Shown: positions 48,020-60,446, numbered from the stretch's first letter. The stretch: DNA of 64,000 nt from Natrinema sp. SYSU A 869 (GCF_019879105.1 NZ_CP082248.1:434001-498000); one strand, 5' to 3'. The notes: a model not told the origin generated them from the sequence alone. A program made the numbers and translations.

Positions 48020-48093
48020 GTTATGGCGTATTTATCAATATCGTGATAATGAGTGCACGATGTCTAGATGGATGCTCATTACGAGAGGAATCG

Positions 48094-49348
48094 ATGATGT
48101 CTAAGATTGTTGCTTCGGTGCTTCCCGAGAATTTATGTGAGCGTGACCAGTGGGTGTGCTGGAAAGAAGAATCTCGAGATGGGAAACCGACGAAGATACC
48201 GGTGATACCGGGCAGTGGTGAGTTCGCGTCATCGACGGACTCAGAGACATGGGCTTCGTTCGAGACAGCACTCGAGTACACCGACACGGGGAACGCCGAT
48301 GGCGTGGGCTTCGTCTTTACTGACGACGATCCCATCGTCGGCGTGGATCTGGATGATTGTCGAGACCCAGAAAGCGGCGACGTCGACGATGTAGCGTTGG
48401 ATATCATCGAGCGACTTGACTCCTATACGGAGATCTCTCCGTCGGGCACTGGTTTTCATGTGCTCATCGAAGGAGAACTCTCAAATGGGCGGAACCGCCG
48501 TGGCAGTATCGAACTATACGACACTGCTCGGTTTTCACCGTTACCGGCGACCACCTCGAGGACACCCCACTTCGTGTTGCACGTCGGCAGGATGCTCTGG
48601 TAGCGATCCATCGTGAGTATGTCCAAGACTCTGTCGCTGACTCCGACTCCGGACCCAAATCTGGTGGGGGCCAGAATACCGGTGAGAAGCAGGCAACGAC
48701 AGTCAGTGCAGTCGACACTGACGTCGACCTCGAGGACGAGGACCTGCTCAAGCGAGCGCGAAACGCATCGAACGGCGAGAAGTTCGAGCGGTTGTGGCGT
48801 GGCTCGACTGCTGGCTACGAGAGTCAGTCAGAAGCGGACATGGCGCTGTGCTGTCTACTGGCGTTCTGGACTGGTGGAGACCAGCAGCAGATGGATCGGC
48901 TCTTCCCCAATCGGGGCTGCTCCGCGACAAGTGGGATGAAGTCCACTACGCCGATGGCTCTATGTATGGTGAAAAGACCATCGAGCGAGCGATTGTGAAC
49001 ACCTCTGAGTTCTACGACCCAGACACTCGAGATACATCGACCGAACCCGCACCTACAAGGAGCGAGTCGTCGACCGCCGCCAGCCGTGACGAATCAGAGC
49101 AGAATCGGAATCATGCGTATCTGGCTGAGAAGAATCGACTGTTGACTGACCGTGTCGACGAACTTGAGGACACGCTTGAGCAGAAGAACGAGCGTATCGA
49201 TCACCTCGAGGCAACGGTCGAGGACCTCGAAACCGAACTTGCGGAGTGTGATCGAGAGATAGAGCAAACTGGGATGACGTCTGAGTGTAAGACCGACTCG
49301 GAGACAACCTCCTTGTGGAGGCGGTTATTTGGAAATAGCTCCGAGTAA
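48094..49348 (+). pseudogene. Plasmid prim-pol-like replication protein, copy B (two frameshifts)
   Basis: The N-terminus reads NLCERDQWVCWKEESRDGKP and TKIPVIPGSGEFASSTDSET, then VGFVFTDDDPIVGVDLDDCR with the catalytic acidic residues and YTEISPSGTGFHVLIEGELS. At about 48533 one T is missing (restored: ARFFTVTGDHLEDTPLRVAR). A second base is missing near 48910 (restored: RLFRQSGLLRDKW). The tail has the same coiled coil as copy A (HAYLAEKNRLLTDRVDELED) and ends SLWRRLFGNSSE. Both breaks are single missing bases with no nonsense codon, so this copy could be intact in the organism. Confidence 0.8.
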
Positions 49349-51837: not shown

Positions 51838-52257
51838 GTTCTCACCAGCAGTGACGTAGACCTCGTCAGCTTCGCACACGTCATAGAGGTCGAACTCGTC
51901 GATATCACCGCTCACGTCCTAGACTTTGTGGACGAAGTTGAGGACGGCTTTGTAATCCCGGTCAAGGTCCCGAGCGATCTGAGCGGTCAGCTCAGATCAC
52001 ATCTCCTTGACGATGTAGAACATCTCTTCGAGACCGAAACGGTGCTGGCCGAAGATCGTCTTTGTGAGGTCGTTGAAGTAGGTCTCGGAGTGCTTGCACC
52101 AGTACTGTTGAGCGTCTTTACCGGTCATCCCGCGTTTGACAACGTCGTCGCTCTTGCAATGGACACACGTCACCGTCTCGCCGAACCGGGCGAGACGGAG
52201 ACGCTCAAAGCATCGCTCACGCGGTGAGAGGAAGACCTGTGTTGACTCCTCGTCCAT
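51838..52257 (-). pseudogene. IS1595-family transposase N-terminal remnant
   Basis: The frame reads MDEESTQVFLSPRERCFERL, ETVTCVHCKSDDVVKRGMTG, KDAQQYWCKHSETYFNDLTK (a CxxC zinc ribbon), FGQHRFGLEEMFYIVKEM, a TGA, SELTAQIARDLDRDYKAVLN, a TAG, and DVSGDIDEFDLYDVCEADEV. This is the N-terminal zinc ribbon and start of the DDE domain of an IS1595 element. Two nonsense codons and a missing C-terminus make it inactive. Confidence 0.75.
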
Positions 52258-52361: not shown

Positions 52362-54053
52362 TCATCCGACCAGCCCGTCGTCAACCCGGTAGACCGCACC
52401 GTTGACGTAGGCCGCCCTCTCGCCCGCGAGGAAGGCGATCACGTCTGCAACCTCTCTGGGGTCGGCGGCCCGCCCGCTGACCGTCTGGTCGGTCACCTCG
52501 CCGTCGCCGACGTGTTTCTCATTGAGTCGAGTGTCGACGTAGCCTGGCGCGACAGCGTTGACTCGAATCGATCGATCGCCGAGTTCGCGGGCGACCGCAC
52601 GGGTAAAGCCGATCAACCCGGCCTTGCTTGCCGCGTAATTGGCCTGTCCGGCCCACCCGCGTAGTCCAGCGACGCTAGCGACGTTGACGATCCGTCCTCC
52701 CTCGCCACGGAGCATCTGCCGGGCAGCTTCGCGGGTGCAGTAGAACGCGCCTGTTAGGTTGGTTTCGAGGACCGAAGCCCACTGCTCGGGATCCATGCGA
52801 ACCACCAGCCCATTATCCATCCGCCCGGCGTTGTTCACGAGGATCGTGGGGCGACCGTGCTCGTCAGCGATTCGCCTGAACGCGTTAGCGACCGCGTCGA
52901 ACTCGCCCACATCAAATTGCTTGACCGCCGTCAAAGCGTCGTAGTCTCCCAGCTTTACTGCGGCCTCTGCGGCGGCTTCCTCATCCGAGCAGTAGGTGGC
53001 CACAGTAGTTGCGCCGCCGGCCGCGAATCGCTCGGCGGTCGCCAGACCGATTCCTCGGGTGCCACCGGTGACGACCGCGACCTCGGCGGCAAACCGGTTG
53101 TTACCCTCATCAGACACCCCTTCGGGAGATCTCACGGCGCAACCGAGCGCCGCCGCGTCCGCGGGCACTTCGAGCGCAACAACCTCCGCATTCGGGATGA
53201 TACGCTCGATCAACCCGGCGAGCGTTCCTGCAGGCGGGATGACTACGTATCGATCGACACCCGCCTCCTGCAGGCGCTCGACAACGCCGTGCCAGTCCAC
53301 CGGTGCGGTGACCTGCTCGGAGAGGTCTCGTCGCGCGACTACTGGGTCGGTGTAGATGCGACAGGAGACATCCGAGACGACCGGGATTGCGGCGGGCTCG
53401 AGATCCACTTCGGCCATCGTCCGGTCGACCGCGTCCGCGGCAGGTTCCATGACCGGCGAGTGGAAGGCCGCGGCCACGTCGAGTTCGCGGAAGCGAGCAC
53501 GCGTACGCTCTGCGAGTCGCTTCCTGATAGCCGCGATGCCTTCCTGAGCGCCGCTGATCACCGTCTGCCGGGGGCCGTTGTACAGTCCGACGCTGACGTC
53601 CTCCCGGTCGGCACACGCTGCTGCGACCTCCTGCGGATCGGCGAGTAACACCGCGAGCATCGTCCCTGGGCTGTCCTCACCGGCAGCCGCTTCGAGTAGT
53701 TCGCCACGCTTTCGTACGAGTGTAACTCCATCCTCGGAATCAAGCGCTCCTCCAGCCGCAAGCGCGGTGAAGTGGCCGAGGCTATGTCCGGCGACATAAT
53801 CTGGATCGAGGCTATAGCGGGCGACCAACCCCTCGTAGATCGCCACGCCGAGGCCGAACAGTGCGGGCTGGGTGTTCCGGGTCATCCGGAGTTCCTTCAC
53901 GTCTCCCGCGAAGCACAGCGCGGCGAGGTCCTCGCCGAGCGTTGCTGACAGTGCCTCTAACCGGTTACGGGTTGTGGGCCACGCCCGGTAGAACGCCTCG
54001 CCCATCCCCGGTTGCTGACTTCCCTGCCCGGGGAAGACGACCGCAGTGGTCAC
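52362..54053 (-). CDS. Fusion protein: malonyl-CoA:ACP transacylase (FabD) + 3-ketoacyl-ACP reductase (FabG)
   Basis: A cytoplasmic protein of about 563 residues with two catalytic domains. Residues 1-300 are FabD-like: VVFPGQGSQQPGMG, the nucleophile elbow AGHSLGHFTALAAGG, NGPRQTVISGAQ, and FHSPVMEPAADAV with the catalytic His. A linker (SPEGVSDEGNNRF) follows. Residues ~328-563 are a short-chain reductase: VVTGGTRGIGLATA, ILVNNAGRMDNG, the Ser at NVASVAG, the Y-x3-K at ANYAASKAG, and the closing YVNGAVYRVDDGLVG. The first domain would load malonyl units onto ACP, the second reduce the keto group with NADPH. The GTG at 54053 is preferred because it overlaps the holo-ACP synthase stop as GTGA. 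It is the last gene of the operon, intact. Confidence 0.92.
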   Translation of the reverse strand: MTTAVVFPGQGSQQPGMGEAFYRAWPTTRNRLEALSATLGEDLAALCFAGDVKELRMTRNTQPALFGLGVAIYEGLVARYSLDPDYVAGHSLGHFTALAAGGALDSEDGVTLVRKRGELLEAAAGEDSPGTMLAVLLADPQEVAAACADREDVSVGLYNGPRQTVISGAQEGIAAIRKRLAERTRARFRELDVAAAFHSPVMEPAADAVDRTMAEVDLEPAAIPVVSDVSCRIYTDPVVARRDLSEQVTAPVDWHGVVERLQEAGVDRYVVIPPAGTLAGLIERIIPNAEVVALEVPADAAALGCAVRSPEGVSDEGNNRFAAEVAVVTGGTRGIGLATAERFAAGGATTVATYCSDEEAAAEAAVKLGDYDALTAVKQFDVGEFDAVANAFRRIADEHGRPTILVNNAGRMDNGLVVRMDPEQWASVLETNLTGAFYCTREAARQMLRGEGGRIVNVASVAGLRGWAGQANYAASKAGLIGFTRAVARELGDRSIRVNAVAPGYVDTRLNEKHVGDGEVTDQTVSGRAADPREVADVIAFLAGERAAYVNGAVYRVDDGLVG

Positions 54054-54547
54054 GGCCGGCAACCTCCCCCAGGGTGGTTGTTACCTGTGGCAATCACGAC
54101 GATCTGCGCCATCGCGGCGTCGGTCTCGCGATCGTGGCTCAGGCTCACCGAGCGGTCGGCCTGCCGGGCGTCAACCCCGATCTGAGACAGGCGGGCCGAG
54201 AGCGCCTCGCGAGCGGACGGTCCGAGCGACAGCCGCGGTCCCGAGGGATCGCGGATGACCTCGATCTCGCGGGTCGGAACGGACGGCGACGGCTCGCCGA
54301 GAACTTTCAGGAACGCTTCTTTTGCCGCCCACCGCGCTGCGTAGTGCTGTGATGGGGAGCGCTGTCGATCGCAGTAGCGCCGTTCCGCGACGGTGAAGGC
54401 GCGGCCGGGGAATGAGTCGCTGAACTCTTCGAGGAGGTCGGCAATCCGCCGGATTGAGACGATGTCGATGCCGCTGTAGATAGTCGGCGTCGCGTTGTCA
54501 GCATCTGCGGAGGGAATGGGTCGAGAATCGTCGGTGTGTCCGCTCAT
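54050..54547 (-). CDS. acpS: Holo-ACP synthase (4'-phosphopantetheinyl transferase, AcpS type)
   Basis: A 165-residue enzyme that transfers phosphopantetheine from CoA to the Ser of apo-ACP, here most likely the ACP encoded at 55757. Conserved blocks are SGIDIVSIRRIADLLEEF (Mg2+-binding Asp in GIDIV), FTVAERRYCDRQ, YAARWAAKEAFLKVLGE (with W-A-A-K-E-A) and SVSLSHDRETDAAMA. An acidic N-terminal extension of about 25 residues is halophile-like. The ATG overlaps the ketosynthase stop as ATGA; its own stop overlaps the next start as GTGA. Intact. Confidence 0.92.
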   Translation of the reverse strand: MSGHTDDSRPIPSADADNATPTIYSGIDIVSIRRIADLLEEFSDSFPGRAFTVAERRYCDRQRSPSQHYAARWAAKEAFLKVLGEPSPSVPTREIEVIRDPSGPRLSLGPSAREALSARLSQIGVDARQADRSVSLSHDRETDAAMAQIVVIATGNNHPGGGCRP

Positions 54548-55757
54548 GGTGTCTCCAGGACGAGTGCTCCGTTCGCGCCACCGAACCCCGCGGAGGTGGA
54601 GACGACTGTCCTAACCTCGTCGTCGACCCGTTCGGTTACGATCGGGAGATCGCAATCCGGGTCAGATGTCTCGTGGTTCGCCGTCGGGGGAGGGTCCCCG
54701 ATTCGATCGTCCGTGCAGCCACGACGGCTTCGATCGCGCCCGCGGCACCGAGTGCGTGTCCCAGCGCTCCCTTTACACTCGTCGTCGGCGGGACGGTTTC
54801 AAAGATCTCCGACAGCGCAGCTGCTTCTGCGGAATCTCCAGCCGGTGTGCCCGTCCCGTGGGCATTGACATGGTCGATCGCTCCAGACGGGAGACCAGCA
54901 TCCGCGAGCGCGCGTTCGACGCTTCGTGCGAGTCCGGTCCCGTTCTCAGCCGGCCGCGTGGGATGGTGAGCATCAGCGGTTATCCCGCTCCCGGAGAGGA
55001 TCGCATAGATCGGCGCGTCCCGCTCCTGAGCGTGGGAAACTGACTCCAGCACTAGAACGGCGCTACCCTCTCCGAGCACGAAGCCATCGCGGTCGGCGTC
55101 GAAGGGGCGGCACGCAGCCGCAGGATCGTCGTTGCGCTTGCTCAGTGCCCTCATCGACTCGAAGCTTCCCACCCCAACAGGGGAGATCGCCGACTCTGCG
55201 CCGCCTGCAAGGACGATGTCGGCCCGTCCTCGGCGAACGTCCTCAGCGGCGTCAGCAAGTGAGTGCGTGCCAGCAGCGCACGCCGTCGATTGGGTTCTGC
55301 TCGGGCCGCGGGCGTTGACGGCCATACTCAGGTGGCCTCCGACAAGGTTCGGCAGGTACGTTAGAAGGAACCACGGCGACGGACGGCTGCTGTCCTGTAT
55401 TACCTCTTCTAGCTCGGGTACCCCGCCGAGCGCGCAGGCGATGCTAGTACCAGCGCGATCGGGCTCCCAAGCTGGGTCCTCGGGATCGTAACCGGCATCA
55501 ACGAGCGCCTCGCGAGCGGCCGCGAGTCCATAGCGCGCGGCCCGGCTGGCCGTCTGCTCATTAACTTCCCACGGGACCGGCGGCACCTCATCGACCTCGC
55601 AAGCTACCGTGGTCCGTAATCCCGCCTCATCGGGCTCGAACCGTTGGATTCGGTCGCCGCTACGTTCCCCAGCACATAATGCGTCCCAAGTTTCGGTAGC
55701 TGTAGTCCCGAGGGGCGTTACCGCACCGAGACCAGTGATCGCGACCGCTCGGTTCAT
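54544..55757 (-). pseudogene. 3-ketoacyl-ACP synthase (FabF/KAS II type), one frameshift near the C-terminus
   Basis: A condensing enzyme that joins malonyl-ACP to a growing acyl chain. It starts NRAVAITGLGAVTPLGTTA. The full catalytic triad is visible: Cys in QSTACAAGTHSLADA, His in VNAHGTGTPAGDS, His in SVKGALGHALGAAGA. Near 54688 one C is missing from a run of C; restored, the frame gives PTANHETSDPDCDLPIVTER, then TVVSTSAGFGGANGALVLET and P, the normal KAS C-terminus with GFGG-N. Without the restoration the product ends early at 54636 (373 residues). All active-site residues survive, so a sequencing error is likely. Its start shares a base with the ACP stop (TGATG). Confidence 0.88.
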
Positions 55758-55996
55758 CAGTCGGCCCGTTCGGCGACGTAGGCCTTGAGGTCGCCGACGG
55801 TCGCCAGATCCTCGAGGTCGTCGTCGGGAACGTGGACCCCAACAGTTGCCTCGATGGCCTCGGCGACCTCTACGATATCCAATGACTCTGCGTCGAGGTC
55901 TTCCTTAAAGCGCGTCCCATCATCGAAGGCATCCTCATTGAGTGAGAGCCGGTCTGTAACTATCTCGTCAACTGTGGATTCAGCCTTGGTTGACAT
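55757..55996 (-). CDS. acpP: Acyl carrier protein
   Basis: About 79 residues, very acidic. Seen are STVDEIVTDRLSLNEDAFDD, GTRFKEDLDAESLDIVEVAE, AIEATVGVHVPDDDLEDLAT and VGDLKAYV. The phosphopantetheine-accepting Ser is in DAESLDIVE, at the start of helix II, equivalent to the DSL motif of bacterial ACPs; the residue before Ser is Glu. The start at 55996 (MSTKAEST) fits the family; the longer frame adds MITRYYHTG. It sits between the reductase and ketosynthase genes and is probably modified by the AcpS encoded in the same operon. Confidence 0.93.
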   Translation of the reverse strand: MSTKAESTVDEIVTDRLSLNEDAFDDGTRFKEDLDAESLDIVEVAEAIEATVGVHVPDDDLEDLATVGDLKAYVAERAD

Positions 55997-56052
55997 ACCC
56001 GTATGGTAATACCGAGTAATCAAAAGCTTGCTTTCAGGGTCCGGCGGCTGAG

Positions 56053-56994
56053 TTAGGGAACGAGAACAAGCTTACCGCAACTCTCCCGTTCCTGGAGTTG
56101 CCGATGTGCCTCGGCAGCGGCTGTGAGGGGAAAGGTGTCCCCCACGACAACCTCGACGGCTTCCCTAGAGAAATGCTTGACTAGTTCCGGAACCGCTGAG
56201 AGCACTCGCACCGGTACGTGATCGAGTGCCTTTTCGAGGTGATACCCGAGTACCGACTTATTCTCGAAGAAGAGCCGTGGCGTAGCGATAGTCGGAACGC
56301 GACCGCTTGCCATCCCGTAGGTCACGATGCGCCCGCCCGAGGCGAGCGCCTCGATAGCATCGGTGAAGGTCCCGCCGCCGACGCCATCCAATGCGAGGTC
56401 GATCGTCAGGTCTTCAATCGCTCCATACTCGACGGCCTGCTCCGCGCCGATCCCGCGGACCAGTTCGCGTTTTTCCTCAGTGCTCGCCGCCCCGATAACC
56501 ACCGCATCGGCTGCGACCGCAAGTTGGACTGCCGCCGTTCCGACTCCGCCCGCAGCAGCGGTTACCAGCACCCGCTCATCGGACTCCAGCCCACCCCACT
56601 CGAATAGCGCGTTGTGCGCTGTCAGCCATTGGACTGAGAGCGCTGTTCCTTCAATGAAGGAGCACCCTTCGGGTAGCCCGACGACCGTGTCGACCGGTGC
56701 AACTGCGTGTTCGGCGTATCCGCTACCTGTCGTAAGGGCGGCAACGCGGTCCCCAACCGCAAGGTCGACATTCTTGCCGATCGCCTCAACGATACCGGCG
56801 ACTTCCAATCCTGGGTGGTACGGCGGCTCCGGCCCGTCAGGGTAGTTCCCGCGACGCTTTTCGACGTCCGCGAAGTTGACACCCGCAGCGCGGACATCAA
56901 TCTGAACTTCCCCTGTGTCAGGTGCTGGGACTGCGGTGTCGACGACCTCCAGCACATCTGGACGACCGTATTCGGGAACACAAACCGTCTCCAT
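56053..56994 (-). CDS. Zinc-independent MDR-family NADPH:quinone/enoyl reductase
   Basis: A 313-residue oxidoreductase starting METVCVPEYGRPDVLEVVDT. It has AAGVNFADVEKRRGNYP and YHPGLEVAGIVEAIGKNVDL without the Zn-binding Cys/His of alcohol dehydrogenases, the NADPH-binding VLVTAAAGGVGTAAVQLA, and GGTFTDAIEALASGGRIVTY. It resembles quinone oxidoreductases and the MDR-type enoyl reductases of fatty-acid and polyketide synthases. Within this operon, reduction of an enoyl-ACP is a sensible role but is inference. The ATG at 56994 lies one base from the upstream stop. Confidence 0.85.
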   Translation of the reverse strand: METVCVPEYGRPDVLEVVDTAVPAPDTGEVQIDVRAAGVNFADVEKRRGNYPDGPEPPYHPGLEVAGIVEAIGKNVDLAVGDRVAALTTGSGYAEHAVAPVDTVVGLPEGCSFIEGTALSVQWLTAHNALFEWGGLESDERVLVTAAAGGVGTAAVQLAVAADAVVIGAASTEEKRELVRGIGAEQAVEYGAIEDLTIDLALDGVGGGTFTDAIEALASGGRIVTYGMASGRVPTIATPRLFFENKSVLGYHLEKALDHVPVRVLSAVPELVKHFSREAVEVVVGDTFPLTAAAEAHRQLQERESCGKLVLVP

Positions 56995-56995
56995 G

Positions 56996-57975
56996 CTATG
57001 TCTTCGCCGGTGCGTTTTCATTTCCTAACGGGGCAATCCCCACTCCTTCGAGCCGTCTGTCTTGCGCCGCCGCGACTCGGGTAAGCAGTTCCTCGCGGTC
57101 CACGTTCGGTCCGCTGTCTCGAACCATCCGGCCGATTATCGTTTCCAAAAGGGGGACCAACTCCGAGAGTGTCCCGACAATCACCTCAGGAGTAACATCC
57201 TCGTGTTCGAGGAGTTCGAGAACCTTTATCTCACCAAAGCTTACGTGTCGTCCTTCGTCACGGCGGAGATATTTGAACCCCTCAACTAGCCCTGGAAGTG
57301 CAGCGATGTCATCGACCTGTCCACTGTATCTCATCTCGACCCACTCGTAGGCGGTTACTGCCAGGATGCCCTCGACTGTGAGATGATAGTGACAGAATGC
57401 CGGGCACGAGTCTCCGGATCATCACGCTCCAGCAGCCGGGCCATCGCGTCGGCCGTCCGGTCGAACAGCTCCTGGTAGTCGTCGTGCCTCCAGCGATCAT
57501 CAGCGGGACTCGTGAGTTTCAGATCGCGGACTTCTTCCTCAGGGCGTACGACGGCTTTCCAGTACCGTTCAAACAACTCTGCGTGGCGGGCCTCGTCGTA
57601 CAGTTGGGTGGCGATGTAACGCTGGTCATAGGGAGCGTCAAGGACGACGGATAGAGGTGCGAGGTCCTTGGTCACAGCCTGTTCCCCAGCCCCGAACTGC
57701 GCAAGCAGTCCCCGTAGGCGGGTAAACTCGGACCGAGACAGCTCGCTGACAGCTTCGCGATCTGCTGAGAGGTCGATTGCTGCCGGGTCCCAGTGACGCT
57801 TAATTGCCGCCTTGGCTAGTCGCTCCGCGTGATCACCGGGATCAATCCCCTTCGTTGACATACGGAATGGATCTTGGTCCATGGATCGAAGATCAGCAAC
57901 CGCCGTAAAGTAGTCTTCGCCTGTCGGTTGACGAGATCGCTCGTCAGGCGAATAACTCCATTCTGGTGCGAACAA
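56996..57975 (-). pseudogene. R2-like ligand-binding (diiron/Mn-Fe) oxidase, one frameshift
   Basis: Ferritin-like four-helix metal oxidase of about 325 residues. The metal ligands are all visible: Glu in AQFGAGEQAVTKDLAP, E-x2-H in QLYDEARHAELFERY, Glu in YHLTVEGILAVTAYEW (after the frame change), and E-x2-H in YLRRDEGRHVSFGEI. Near 57385 one G is missing (GCCCGGCATTC; restored: ARAFCHYHL). The N-terminus may begin at 57975 or at 57861 (MSTKGIDPGDHAERLAK). R2lox proteins bind a long-chain fatty acid at the metal site, which fits its place at the head of an ACP-dependent operon. Confidence 0.82.
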
Positions 57976-58536: not shown

Positions 58537-59662
58537 GTGCCTAGTACCCAGCAAGCAGACAATTCAATCCACGAGGACCAACTCCTTAACTTCCTCGTCA
58601 ACACGATTGACGAGGAAGTCGATTTGACTTCGCTCCAAACGCCGAAGCGACGTCTGAAGACATTTACGAGGTCCTCAGTCTCGACACTCTGCGAGAAGAG
58701 CGAAGATTCACTTCACCAAAACACAGTTCTGTACCACCTCCGCAAGAAGTTCGATCTAGAATCAGTTGAACAAACCGGCAACACGCTGCTTCAGAAGGAC
58801 ATTCTCGACATTCTGCCTGAGCAGGTGGAGGTCGTGGCTGACCTCCACCTGCGGCCCTACTATGGTGACGAAGACGAGACGAACGGCCTCTATCACTCGG
58901 AAGCAAAACGTGGAACTACTGCCTTCCACGCCTATGCCACACTCTACGCGCGTGTGAAAAACAAGCGGTTCACGCTGGCAGTGCGCCGTCTCGAAGACGG
59001 CAACACTGCCAGCAGCGTCCTTGCAGCGTTTCTTGGTGTTCTCGACGGCCTTGACTTCAGCGTCAAGGCTGTCTATCTTGACCGCGAATTCTACGACAGC
59101 AAGTGTCTCAGGTTGCTTCAGGCACACAATCACGCCTACATAATGCCGATCGTCCGGTGGGGAAAGACGATCAAGCAGGAACTCTCGACTGGATGGAGCC
59201 GAATAATCCAGCACGATCTGACGGGGAAACTCGACGGTCACAGCTGGACCGTCGAGTTTCCCGTCTACATCGACTGTACCTACCAGAACGGACGATACGA
59301 CGAACATGGAGTGGCGCGTCACGGCTACGCCGCTGACGCGCCGTTCATTGAGACGCCACGAGACGCTCGATACCACTACGCGAAACGCTTCGGTATCGAG
59401 ACCAGCTACCGCCTCTCTGAACAGAGTATTGCGACAACGTCGACACAAGATCCGATGGTTCGGCTGTTGTACGTCGTGGTGAGTCTGCTGGCGGTATCTG
59501 CACTGGGAATATGTGGCGACGCCCCGCCGTGGCGGGCGTCGCCTCTGGTTATGGTCGTTCAAGGAATTCATTAACATGATTCGACGGGCAGCGTGGACGG
59601 CCCTCGCGGTGCGTCGGGCCGTCTCCGCAAATCGGCCACCGGACGATCGGTTCCACCGCTAA
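58537..59662 (+). pseudogene. ISH3-family transposase, small deletion near the C-terminus
   Basis: Starts at GTG (MPSTQQADNSIHEDQLLNFL). The DDE core is visible: VVADLHLRPYYGDEDETNGL (first Asp), LDFSVKAVYLDREFYDSKCL (second Asp), and RFGIETSYRLSEQSIATTST (Glu). Near 59490 several bases are lost and the frame shifts; the family's tail is recovered in the next frame as WRYLHWEYVATPRRGGRRLW, SFKEFINMIRRAAWTALAVR and RPPDDRFHR, ending at 59662. The catalytic core is untouched, so weak activity cannot be excluded. A GTTGAAAAGTCTGCTTGC left-end-like sequence lies at 58513. Confidence 0.85.
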
Positions 59663-59862: not shown

Positions 59863-60147
59863 TCAATCGTCGGCAGTGTAGGCTCCGCTTCGGTGCTCAA
59901 TCCGATGGACTTCAAGGACTGACTCATCGGAATCAAGGGTGCAAGCGAGACGATATTGACCGACACGGAGTTTGGAAAACGGTCCGCCGGTCAACGGTTC
60001 AAGGACATCTTCTGGATCTCGCCACTCTGAGTTCACAACCTCATCGAGCTTTGAGATGATACGATCTTGGATGTGTGGATCGAGCCCATCGAACTGGTCC
60101 ACAGCGCGTGGTGTGAACTTCCAGGTCCAGTCCTCGTCACTCGTCAT
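59863..60147 (-). CDS. RelE/ParE-family toxin
   Basis: A 94-residue toxin: WTWKFTPRAVDQFDGLDPHI, QDRIISKLDEVVNSEWRDPE, LEPLTGGPFSKLRVGQYRLA, CTLDSDESVLEVHRIEHRSG. It has the RelE-type core (KLRVGQYRL strand and the VHRIEHR end, with basic residues for mRNA contact). RelE enzymes cut mRNA at the ribosome. It overlaps the antitoxin gene upstream by eleven bases; the two are surely cotranscribed. Confidence 0.92.
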   Translation of the reverse strand: MTSDEDWTWKFTPRAVDQFDGLDPHIQDRIISKLDEVVNSEWRDPEDVLEPLTGGPFSKLRVGQYRLACTLDSDESVLEVHRIEHRSGAYTADD

Positions 60148-60433
60148 CCTCGTCTCGGTCCATCATCTCGACCACGTCCTCTCGTGAGACTAACTCTGCG
60201 CTGCCGGACCGTAAGTCATGTTCGCTCGCTGCAATCTGTTTCCATCCCTCTCGGGAGAATTCAGGATGCTTCACTGCGTCACGGGCCGCATACCGAAGGA
60301 ATTCGCTTCGGGAATTGAACCCTTGCTCTTCCCAGGTTATATCAATGTCCTCAAGGAAGGCTTTGCTCAATCGAAGATTGATCTGAACCATCTCTGGCCC
60401 GTTGTCGTTAACCCCGGTATCAGCATCAGACAT
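60137..60433 (-). CDS. Ribbon-helix-helix antitoxin paired with RelE
   Basis: About 98 residues. The RHH DNA-binding domain reads MVQINLRLSKAFLEDIDITW, EEQGFNSRSEFLRYAARDAV, followed by an acidic tail (SREDVVEMMDRDEDDE) that should bind and block the toxin. ATG at 60433 or 60439. The AT-rich promoter and a CATATACATATG-type palindrome lie directly upstream, a likely operator for self-repression by the pair. Confidence 0.9.
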   Translation of the reverse strand: MSDADTGVNDNGPEMVQINLRLSKAFLEDIDITWEEQGFNSRSEFLRYAARDAVKHPEFSREGWKQIAASEHDLRSGSAELVSREDVVEMMDRDEDDE

Positions 60434-60446
60434 ATACATATGCTTT
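60428..60446. promoter_or_regulatory. ATATACATATGC-like palindrome at the antitoxin start
   Basis: CATATACATATG overlaps the first antitoxin codons and AAGCATATG bases. RHH antitoxins commonly bind such sites to repress their own operon. Tentative. Confidence 0.3.

Follow-up and report, generated by a model that had tools for sequence, protein, structure and literature searches.

A type II fatty acid synthase-like operon with an R2-like ligand-binding oxidase in haloarchaea

As one of the closest known counterparts of an operon found in Natrinema sp. SYSU A 869 (GCF_019879105.1, NZ_CP082248.1:434001-498000; this whole stretch of 64,000 nucleotides is called the window below), we considered bacterial type II fatty acid synthesis (FAS), which uses the same discrete families (FabD, FabG, acyl carrier protein (ACP), FabF and AcpS), all with intact catalytic residues in the window, and for which the fabH-fabD-fabG-acpP-fabF genes of E. 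coli form a likewise compact set. The window differs from it in having neither FabZ/FabA nor FabH, in carrying an MDR-family reductase in place of FabI, FabK, FabL or FabV, in a ketoacyl synthase (KAS) that falls in a haloarchaeal clade of its own, and in the attachment of an R2-like ligand-binding oxidase (R2lox). Members of the R2lox family such as GkR2loxI, M. tuberculosis Rv0233 and the Sulfolobus R2lox have the same six ligands and cross-link Val/Tyr pair as the R2lox of the cluster, but the latter is distant from them (72 bits to 4hr0-type chains), forms its own haloarchaeal subgroup and is encoded with an acyl-ACP synthase. Lipolanthine-type clusters combine a LanM with FAS or polyketide synthase (PKS) genes; some relatives of the operon (clade B, see below) pair the same KAS-ACP core with a LanM, whereas the window operon has neither LanM nor precursor peptide. 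Type II PKS, made of ketosynthase (KS), chain length factor (CLF) and ACP, have the KAS, ACP, FabD and FabG families in common with the operon, but a type II PKS was rejected because there is one KAS with an active Cys, no CLF, and no grouping of this KAS with actinobacterial PKS-type KS in our tree; in a survey of type II PKS, Methanoperedenaceae were the source of all three archaeal CLFs reported (PMC10132072). Finally, ACP and the enzymes that process it are known from a few unrelated archaea, as scattered ACP, AcpS and malonyl-CoA:ACP transacylase genes (Lombard et al., reviewed in PMC3533463), whereas the window contains an ordered, conserved and haloarchaea-specific operon with R2lox and MDR.

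At about even confidence, we read this locus as a dedicated haloarchaeal synthase that makes acyl-ACP in the manner of type II FAS; R2lox would then oxidise the chain. The window (C2:434001-498000) belongs to an 881-kb second replicon, a megaplasmid, of a 5.67 Mb genome in three contigs, and the operon runs on the minus strand in the order R2lox, MDR reductase, ACP, KAS II, AcpS, FabD, FabG, with overlaps of a few bases at the ACP/KAS, KAS/AcpS and AcpS/FabD junctions:

56996..57861, minus strand: R2lox (NCBIfam NF006200; relatives match structures 4hr0 and 3ee4)
57355-57975 and 56996-57334, minus strand: open reading frames (ORFs) of the two R2lox halves, split by one missing G at 57400-57401
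56053..56994, minus strand: MDR-family reductase of QOR/PIG3 type, like PKS/FAS enoyl-reductase domains (Pfam ADH_N and ADH_zinc_N)
55757..55996, minus strand: ACP, with its Ser in DAESLDIVE (PP-binding, 39 bits)
54544..55757, minus strand: KAS II/FabF ketosynthase (ketoacyl-synt N and C)
54050..54547, minus strand: AcpS holo-ACP synthase (PF01648, 52 bits)
53118..54053, minus strand: FabD malonyl-CoA:ACP transacylase, motifs GHSLGH, VRKRG and AAFHS (Acyl_transf_1, 130 bits)
52362..53117, minus strand: FabG ketoreductase with NNAG, Ser and YxxxK (adh_short_C2, 193 bits)

A reading made from the DNA alone (the sequence-only reading) had described a six-gene minus-strand operon with overlaps, and every gene was recovered where it had been placed, in agreement with Pfam and NCBIfam. 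MDR, ACP, KAS, AcpS, FabD and FabG score far above the Pfam cut-off and both R2 halves match Ribonuc_red_sm slightly under it; the NCBIfam names (R2-like ligand-binding oxidase, FabF, ACP, holo-ACP synthase, FabD, FabG) were mostly obtained below the strict equivalog cut-offs. The discrete ACP, AcpS, malonyl transferase, ketosynthase and ketoreductase of type II FAS are all present, and the catalytic residues that had been called visible were confirmed: KAS C160, H300, H334 and K329 are invariant across 19 haloarchaeal homologues, AcpS has GIDIVSI and AAKEAF, FabG the S-Y-K set, and the FabD and ACP motifs are intact. The FabD is 54-72% identical to the stand-alone FabD of the R2lox/MDR-type relatives (clade A). 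From comparison with relatives, translation probably starts at ATG 57861 for R2lox, 56994 for MDR, 55996 for ACP and GTG 54053 for FabD.

Within the complete genome, AcpS is the single match to the ACPS superfamily of phosphopantetheinyl transferases, which bears out the proposal of a self-contained ACP-dependent set with its own activating enzyme, and the KAS, with its active-site Cys, is the sole full ketoacyl-synt protein. The lack of FabZ and KAS III, noted earlier for the operon, extends to the whole genome, with no PF07977 (FabA/FabZ) match anywhere and only two sub-threshold PF08541 (FabH) matches, both on C3. The genome search for a carboxylase that had been suggested returned carboxyltransferase matches on the largest contig; there are also 12 MaoC matches, which could substitute for FabZ. 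In a divergent cluster (L048), the genes for KAS, ACP, AcpS, FabD, FabG and MDR are accompanied by a MaoC dehydratase, an alpha/beta hydrolase and a carboxyltransferase; it would make a complete cycle and suggests, by analogy, how the window cycle closes. The MDR protein matches PDB structures of FAS/PKS enoyl-reductase domains and of quinone oxidoreductases.

Nine intact cluster homologues all share the metal ligands of R2lox (four Glu and two His: E57, E87xxH90, E161, E199xxH202), and the window halves show GEQAV, DEARH, YHLTVE and DEGRH. Residues V60 and Y156, invariant in the same nine proteins, align with the cross-link pair of 4hr0; the ether cross-link of GkR2loxI is formed by V72 and Y162 (PMC6399176). 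An R2 subunit of ribonucleotide reductase was also considered, and this R2lox-specific pair and the best matches rule against it. The R2lox tree places the cluster-type proteins in one group of 15 (support 91/99), apart from the common haloarchaeal paralogues through which 134 of 391 genomes match in a profile search of the class, a count that is not cluster-specific. Cluster-type R2lox accompany every clade-A KAS lineage except L034, including genomes in which the genes have been rearranged. In G029, a cluster-type R2lox followed by MDR lies ~225 kb away from the ACP-KAS-AcpS-FabD-FabG genes of the same genome. One arm of the Haloterrigena locus is of window type, R2lox-MDR-ACP-(KAS remnant)-FabG (75 and 63% identity to the window for the R2lox halves, 71% for MDR and 82% for FabG), the facing arm ACP-KAS-AcpS-FabD belongs to another subtype, and the two arms restore one full set. 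Because trees and gene content keep R2lox with clade-A KAS through such splits and mosaics, R2lox, which the sequence-only reading had left unexplained, is, as judged from these comparisons, a regular member of the acyl-ACP system, and its retention points to the acyl chain of that synthase as its substrate. R2lox structures have a long-chain fatty acid bound at the metal site (PMC6399176), and hydroxy fatty acids co-purified with GkR2loxI, for which alkane oxidation has been reported (PMC10867098). A 2019 paper stated that no physiological function had been identified for R2lox (PMC6399176); the operon offers a testable handle on it.

Another R2lox paralogue of this genome (L183:5979-15591; G000:C3 near 1835980) lies amid acyl-CoA-type genes, recognised by eye as enoyl-CoA hydratase, 3-hydroxyacyl-CoA dehydrogenase, CoA-transferase, acyl-CoA synthetase and thiolase, a neighbourhood that also hints at acyl substrates.

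A maximum-likelihood KAS tree was generated with 25 haloarchaeal KAS, 36 bacterial FabF chosen by pattern among the matches listed, two further FabF and three actinobacterial plasmid KS. The 25 haloarchaeal KAS fall on one side of a branch (support 100/99), apart from all bacterial FabF and KS sampled, and the window KAS pairs with that of G029 (67% identity). Clade A, the R2lox/MDR type, comprises 14 rows (support 93/96), and the remainder, without R2lox, is referred to as clade B. Since the haloarchaeal KAS form a single clade apart from the sampled bacterial FabF and PKS KS, the set appears, given these bacteria, to be a long-standing haloarchaeal family whose members travel between haloarchaea on plasmids, and not a fresh bacterial import. 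Gain by transfer had been proposed; understood as a recent gain from a bacterium, it is not supported by this tree, and the movement would be mainly among haloarchaea.

The sequence-only reading would have been refuted by a cluster that is widespread and already characterised in Halobacteria, which is not what we observed. The KAS was found in 17 of 391 Halobacteria genomes (11 of 86 genera) by protein search, and we found no description of a haloarchaeal R2lox/acyl-ACP operon in the open-access literature searched. When 393 genomes of the phylum, a sample that partly overlaps with the former, were searched with a profile, four gave the KAS; two of these four belong to other families of the phylum and matched more weakly. 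The gene-order comparison that had been called for showed that the full order R2lox-MDR-ACP-KAS-AcpS-FabD-FabG recurs on plasmids of Natronorubrum bangense (L027) and Haloferax mediterranei (pHME505, L028); Haloterrigena turkmenica and Haloterrigena sp. KLK7 have the two-armed version, the Halomontanus and Haloarcula JP-L23 versions have no R2lox, and a search for near-identical plasmid copies found none. A published statement holds that ACPs are absent from archaea (PMC10332631). The haloarchaeal operon, conserved and equipped with both an ACP and its own AcpS, is at odds with that statement in its general form, and the H. mediterranei pHME505 operon is a system in which it can be tested. Remnants of the operon were seen in G301 (R2lox then FabD) and G053 (R2lox-MDR and a FabG piece), at L180:7505-9510 and L179:7131-9178, with no adjoining KAS or ACP.

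From the gene families and active-site residues observed, we infer the pathway order, the MaoC partner, the mode of initiation and the R2lox reaction as follows. AcpS would arm ACP and FabD would transfer malonyl groups from malonyl-CoA. Because the genome has no KAS III, we propose that the single KAS II initiates the chain, probably by malonyl-ACP decarboxylation, and then elongates it; FabH-independent initiation via a malonyl-ACP decarboxylase is known in bacteria (PMC8666670). FabG would reduce the 3-keto group, a MaoC-type hydratase encoded outside the operon would remove water, the MDR protein, as the proposed enoyl-thioester reductase, would reduce the double bond, and R2lox, with O2 at its di-metal centre, would oxidise the chain to a hydroxylated or otherwise oxidised acyl product. 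Four points weigh against this scheme: the clade-A cluster of L034 lacks R2lox; the operon has no thioesterase or acyl acceptor gene; the MDR family also includes plain quinone reductases; and the participation of MaoC is suggested by analogy with one divergent cluster, L048. On a broader and tentative view, an old, horizontally shared haloarchaeal acyl synthase may feed a distinct R2lox subgroup to give oxidised acyl compounds of a kind not known in archaea, with clade B supplying acyl chains to archaeal lanthipeptides.

Another possibility, which concerns the window copy only and is compatible with every reading of the product, is that this copy is a decaying plasmid remnant with real R2lox and KAS frameshifts, a fused FabD-FabG and flanking transposase ORFs. 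In R2lox one base is missing at 57400-57401 (GG in the window, GGG in relative L029); in KAS one C is missing from the C-run 54686-54690, which throws the end of the protein, GFGG loop included, out of frame, and the alternative frame continues to LETP-stop. The operon has two or three lesions in 5.6 kb, more than the background of about one per 12 kb in conserved chromosomal genes, and this excess favours decay. The background comes from a control in which three chromosomal stretches of the same assembly were compared with two relatives (~35 kb of covered genes): two genes were frame-changed, one twice and the other once, each time by a single missing base, and two of the three changes lie in homopolymer runs, whereas the two relatives compared with each other gave no frame change in 25 genes. 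A third candidate gene (against G144, in L182) proved intergenic on inspection. Against decay, a chromosomal carboxyltransferase gene (G000:C3:784452-785910) is also spread over three frames, by assembly indels or because it is broken, and the broken R2lox and KAS otherwise keep their conserved residues. We therefore hold decay to be unlikely; because conserved chromosomal genes in the same assembly are likewise interrupted by deletions of one base, assembly errors are probably the simplest reading of the R2lox and KAS frameshifts. A primase-like gene in the window (48043-49348, plus strand) also seems, by eye, to be split over two frames, a possible further indel.

The FabD-FabG fusion reported from the sequence survives in part: FabD and FabG do form one open frame in the window copy, but in every relative inspected they are encoded separately, either overlapping slightly or divided by a short spacer, so that a true fusion as a family trait was rejected. 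When FabG is read from GTG 53117 (VSDEGNNRFAAEV), its N-terminus resembles that of the closest relative (MSEQPGRFANEV); a single base missing near the end of fabD would mimic a fusion, and there are probably two genes.

As to the product, the chain might end up in a secreted natural product, as its acyl tail or as a short polyketide, and R2lox would then be a tailoring oxidase. Two clade-B relatives adjoin LanM lanthionine synthetases (DUF4135 and LANC_like), a luciferase-like monooxygenase and small Cys-rich precursor-like peptides, others adjoin GNAT, P450 and asparagine-synthase-like genes, and the patchy plasmid distribution is compatible with specialised metabolism. We nevertheless find this reading doubtful, as clade-A operons have no peptide, non-ribosomal peptide synthetase (NRPS) or export genes in the flanks seen; in the window flanks, inspection revealed no lipM, lipA, gcv, peptide, NRPS, export, LanM or precursor-peptide gene. 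The two clade-B KAS-ACP and LanM clusters come from two haloarchaeal families (L045:4662-18500 and L047:1135-12893); their peptides, which end for example in GSCVCDSCDKDGCTGI in L045 and in a repeated DSCWSSSCN in L047, resemble lanthipeptide precursors and make a lipolanthine-type archaeal cluster possible, of which two archaeal lanthipeptide papers, checked by term, make no mention.

Alternatively, the system might provide octanoyl-ACP for lipoylation of GcvH and 2-oxoacid dehydrogenases, as mitochondrial FAS does, with R2lox as an add-on. In three out of roughly nine independent clade-A contexts, genes for glycine cleavage or lipoyl metabolism lie no more than a few kb away: ilvA-gcvT-gcvH-gcvP adjoins the operon in Haloterrigena and in G369, a member of another family (L041), and lipoamide dehydrogenase and lipA stand beside it in G243 (L034). 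The gcv genes (with IclR and threonine ammonia-lyase), or lipA with lipoamide dehydrogenase, lie at L041:14218-19450, L029:12180-18881 and L034:7-4363, an adjacency spotted post hoc and without a formal control. Halobacteriales retain LipM octanoyltransferases (PMC3904984), the archaeal substrate of which has been called unresolved (PMC10332631). LipM is widespread in the order, however, and an operon whose KAS occurs in so few Halobacteria is too rare for general lipoylation; moreover no operon contains lipM or lipA, neither gene is near the window copy, and R2lox is left unexplained, so that we regard this use as improbable. Production of (R)-3-hydroxyacyl units for polyhydroxyalkanoate, which would explain the missing dehydratase and recalls the H. 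mediterranei operon ~2 kb from phaC and near a pantetheine-phosphate adenylyltransferase gene, is highly improbable, since phaC is near that copy only, FabG acting on CoA esters would suffice without ACP, AcpS and FabD, and neither the enoyl-reductase-like MDR nor R2lox would have a role.

The plasmid setting and nearby insertion sequences of the sequence-only reading agree with the 881-kb replicon and with the transposase-like ORFs found on both sides of the operon:

51997..52257, minus strand: transposase zinc-ribbon remnant, directly downstream of the operon (weak InsA/IS1595 zinc-ribbon matches)
58537..59574, plus strand: transposase-like ORF, upstream of the operon (Pfam matched no family)

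The remnant has DNA copies ~81-83% identical elsewhere in the genus, and the upstream ORF, judged by eye, is presumably ISH3-like. Further along, a RelE-like ORF overlaps a ribbon-helix-helix-like ORF on the minus strand (59863-60439), by eye probably a type II toxin-antitoxin pair.

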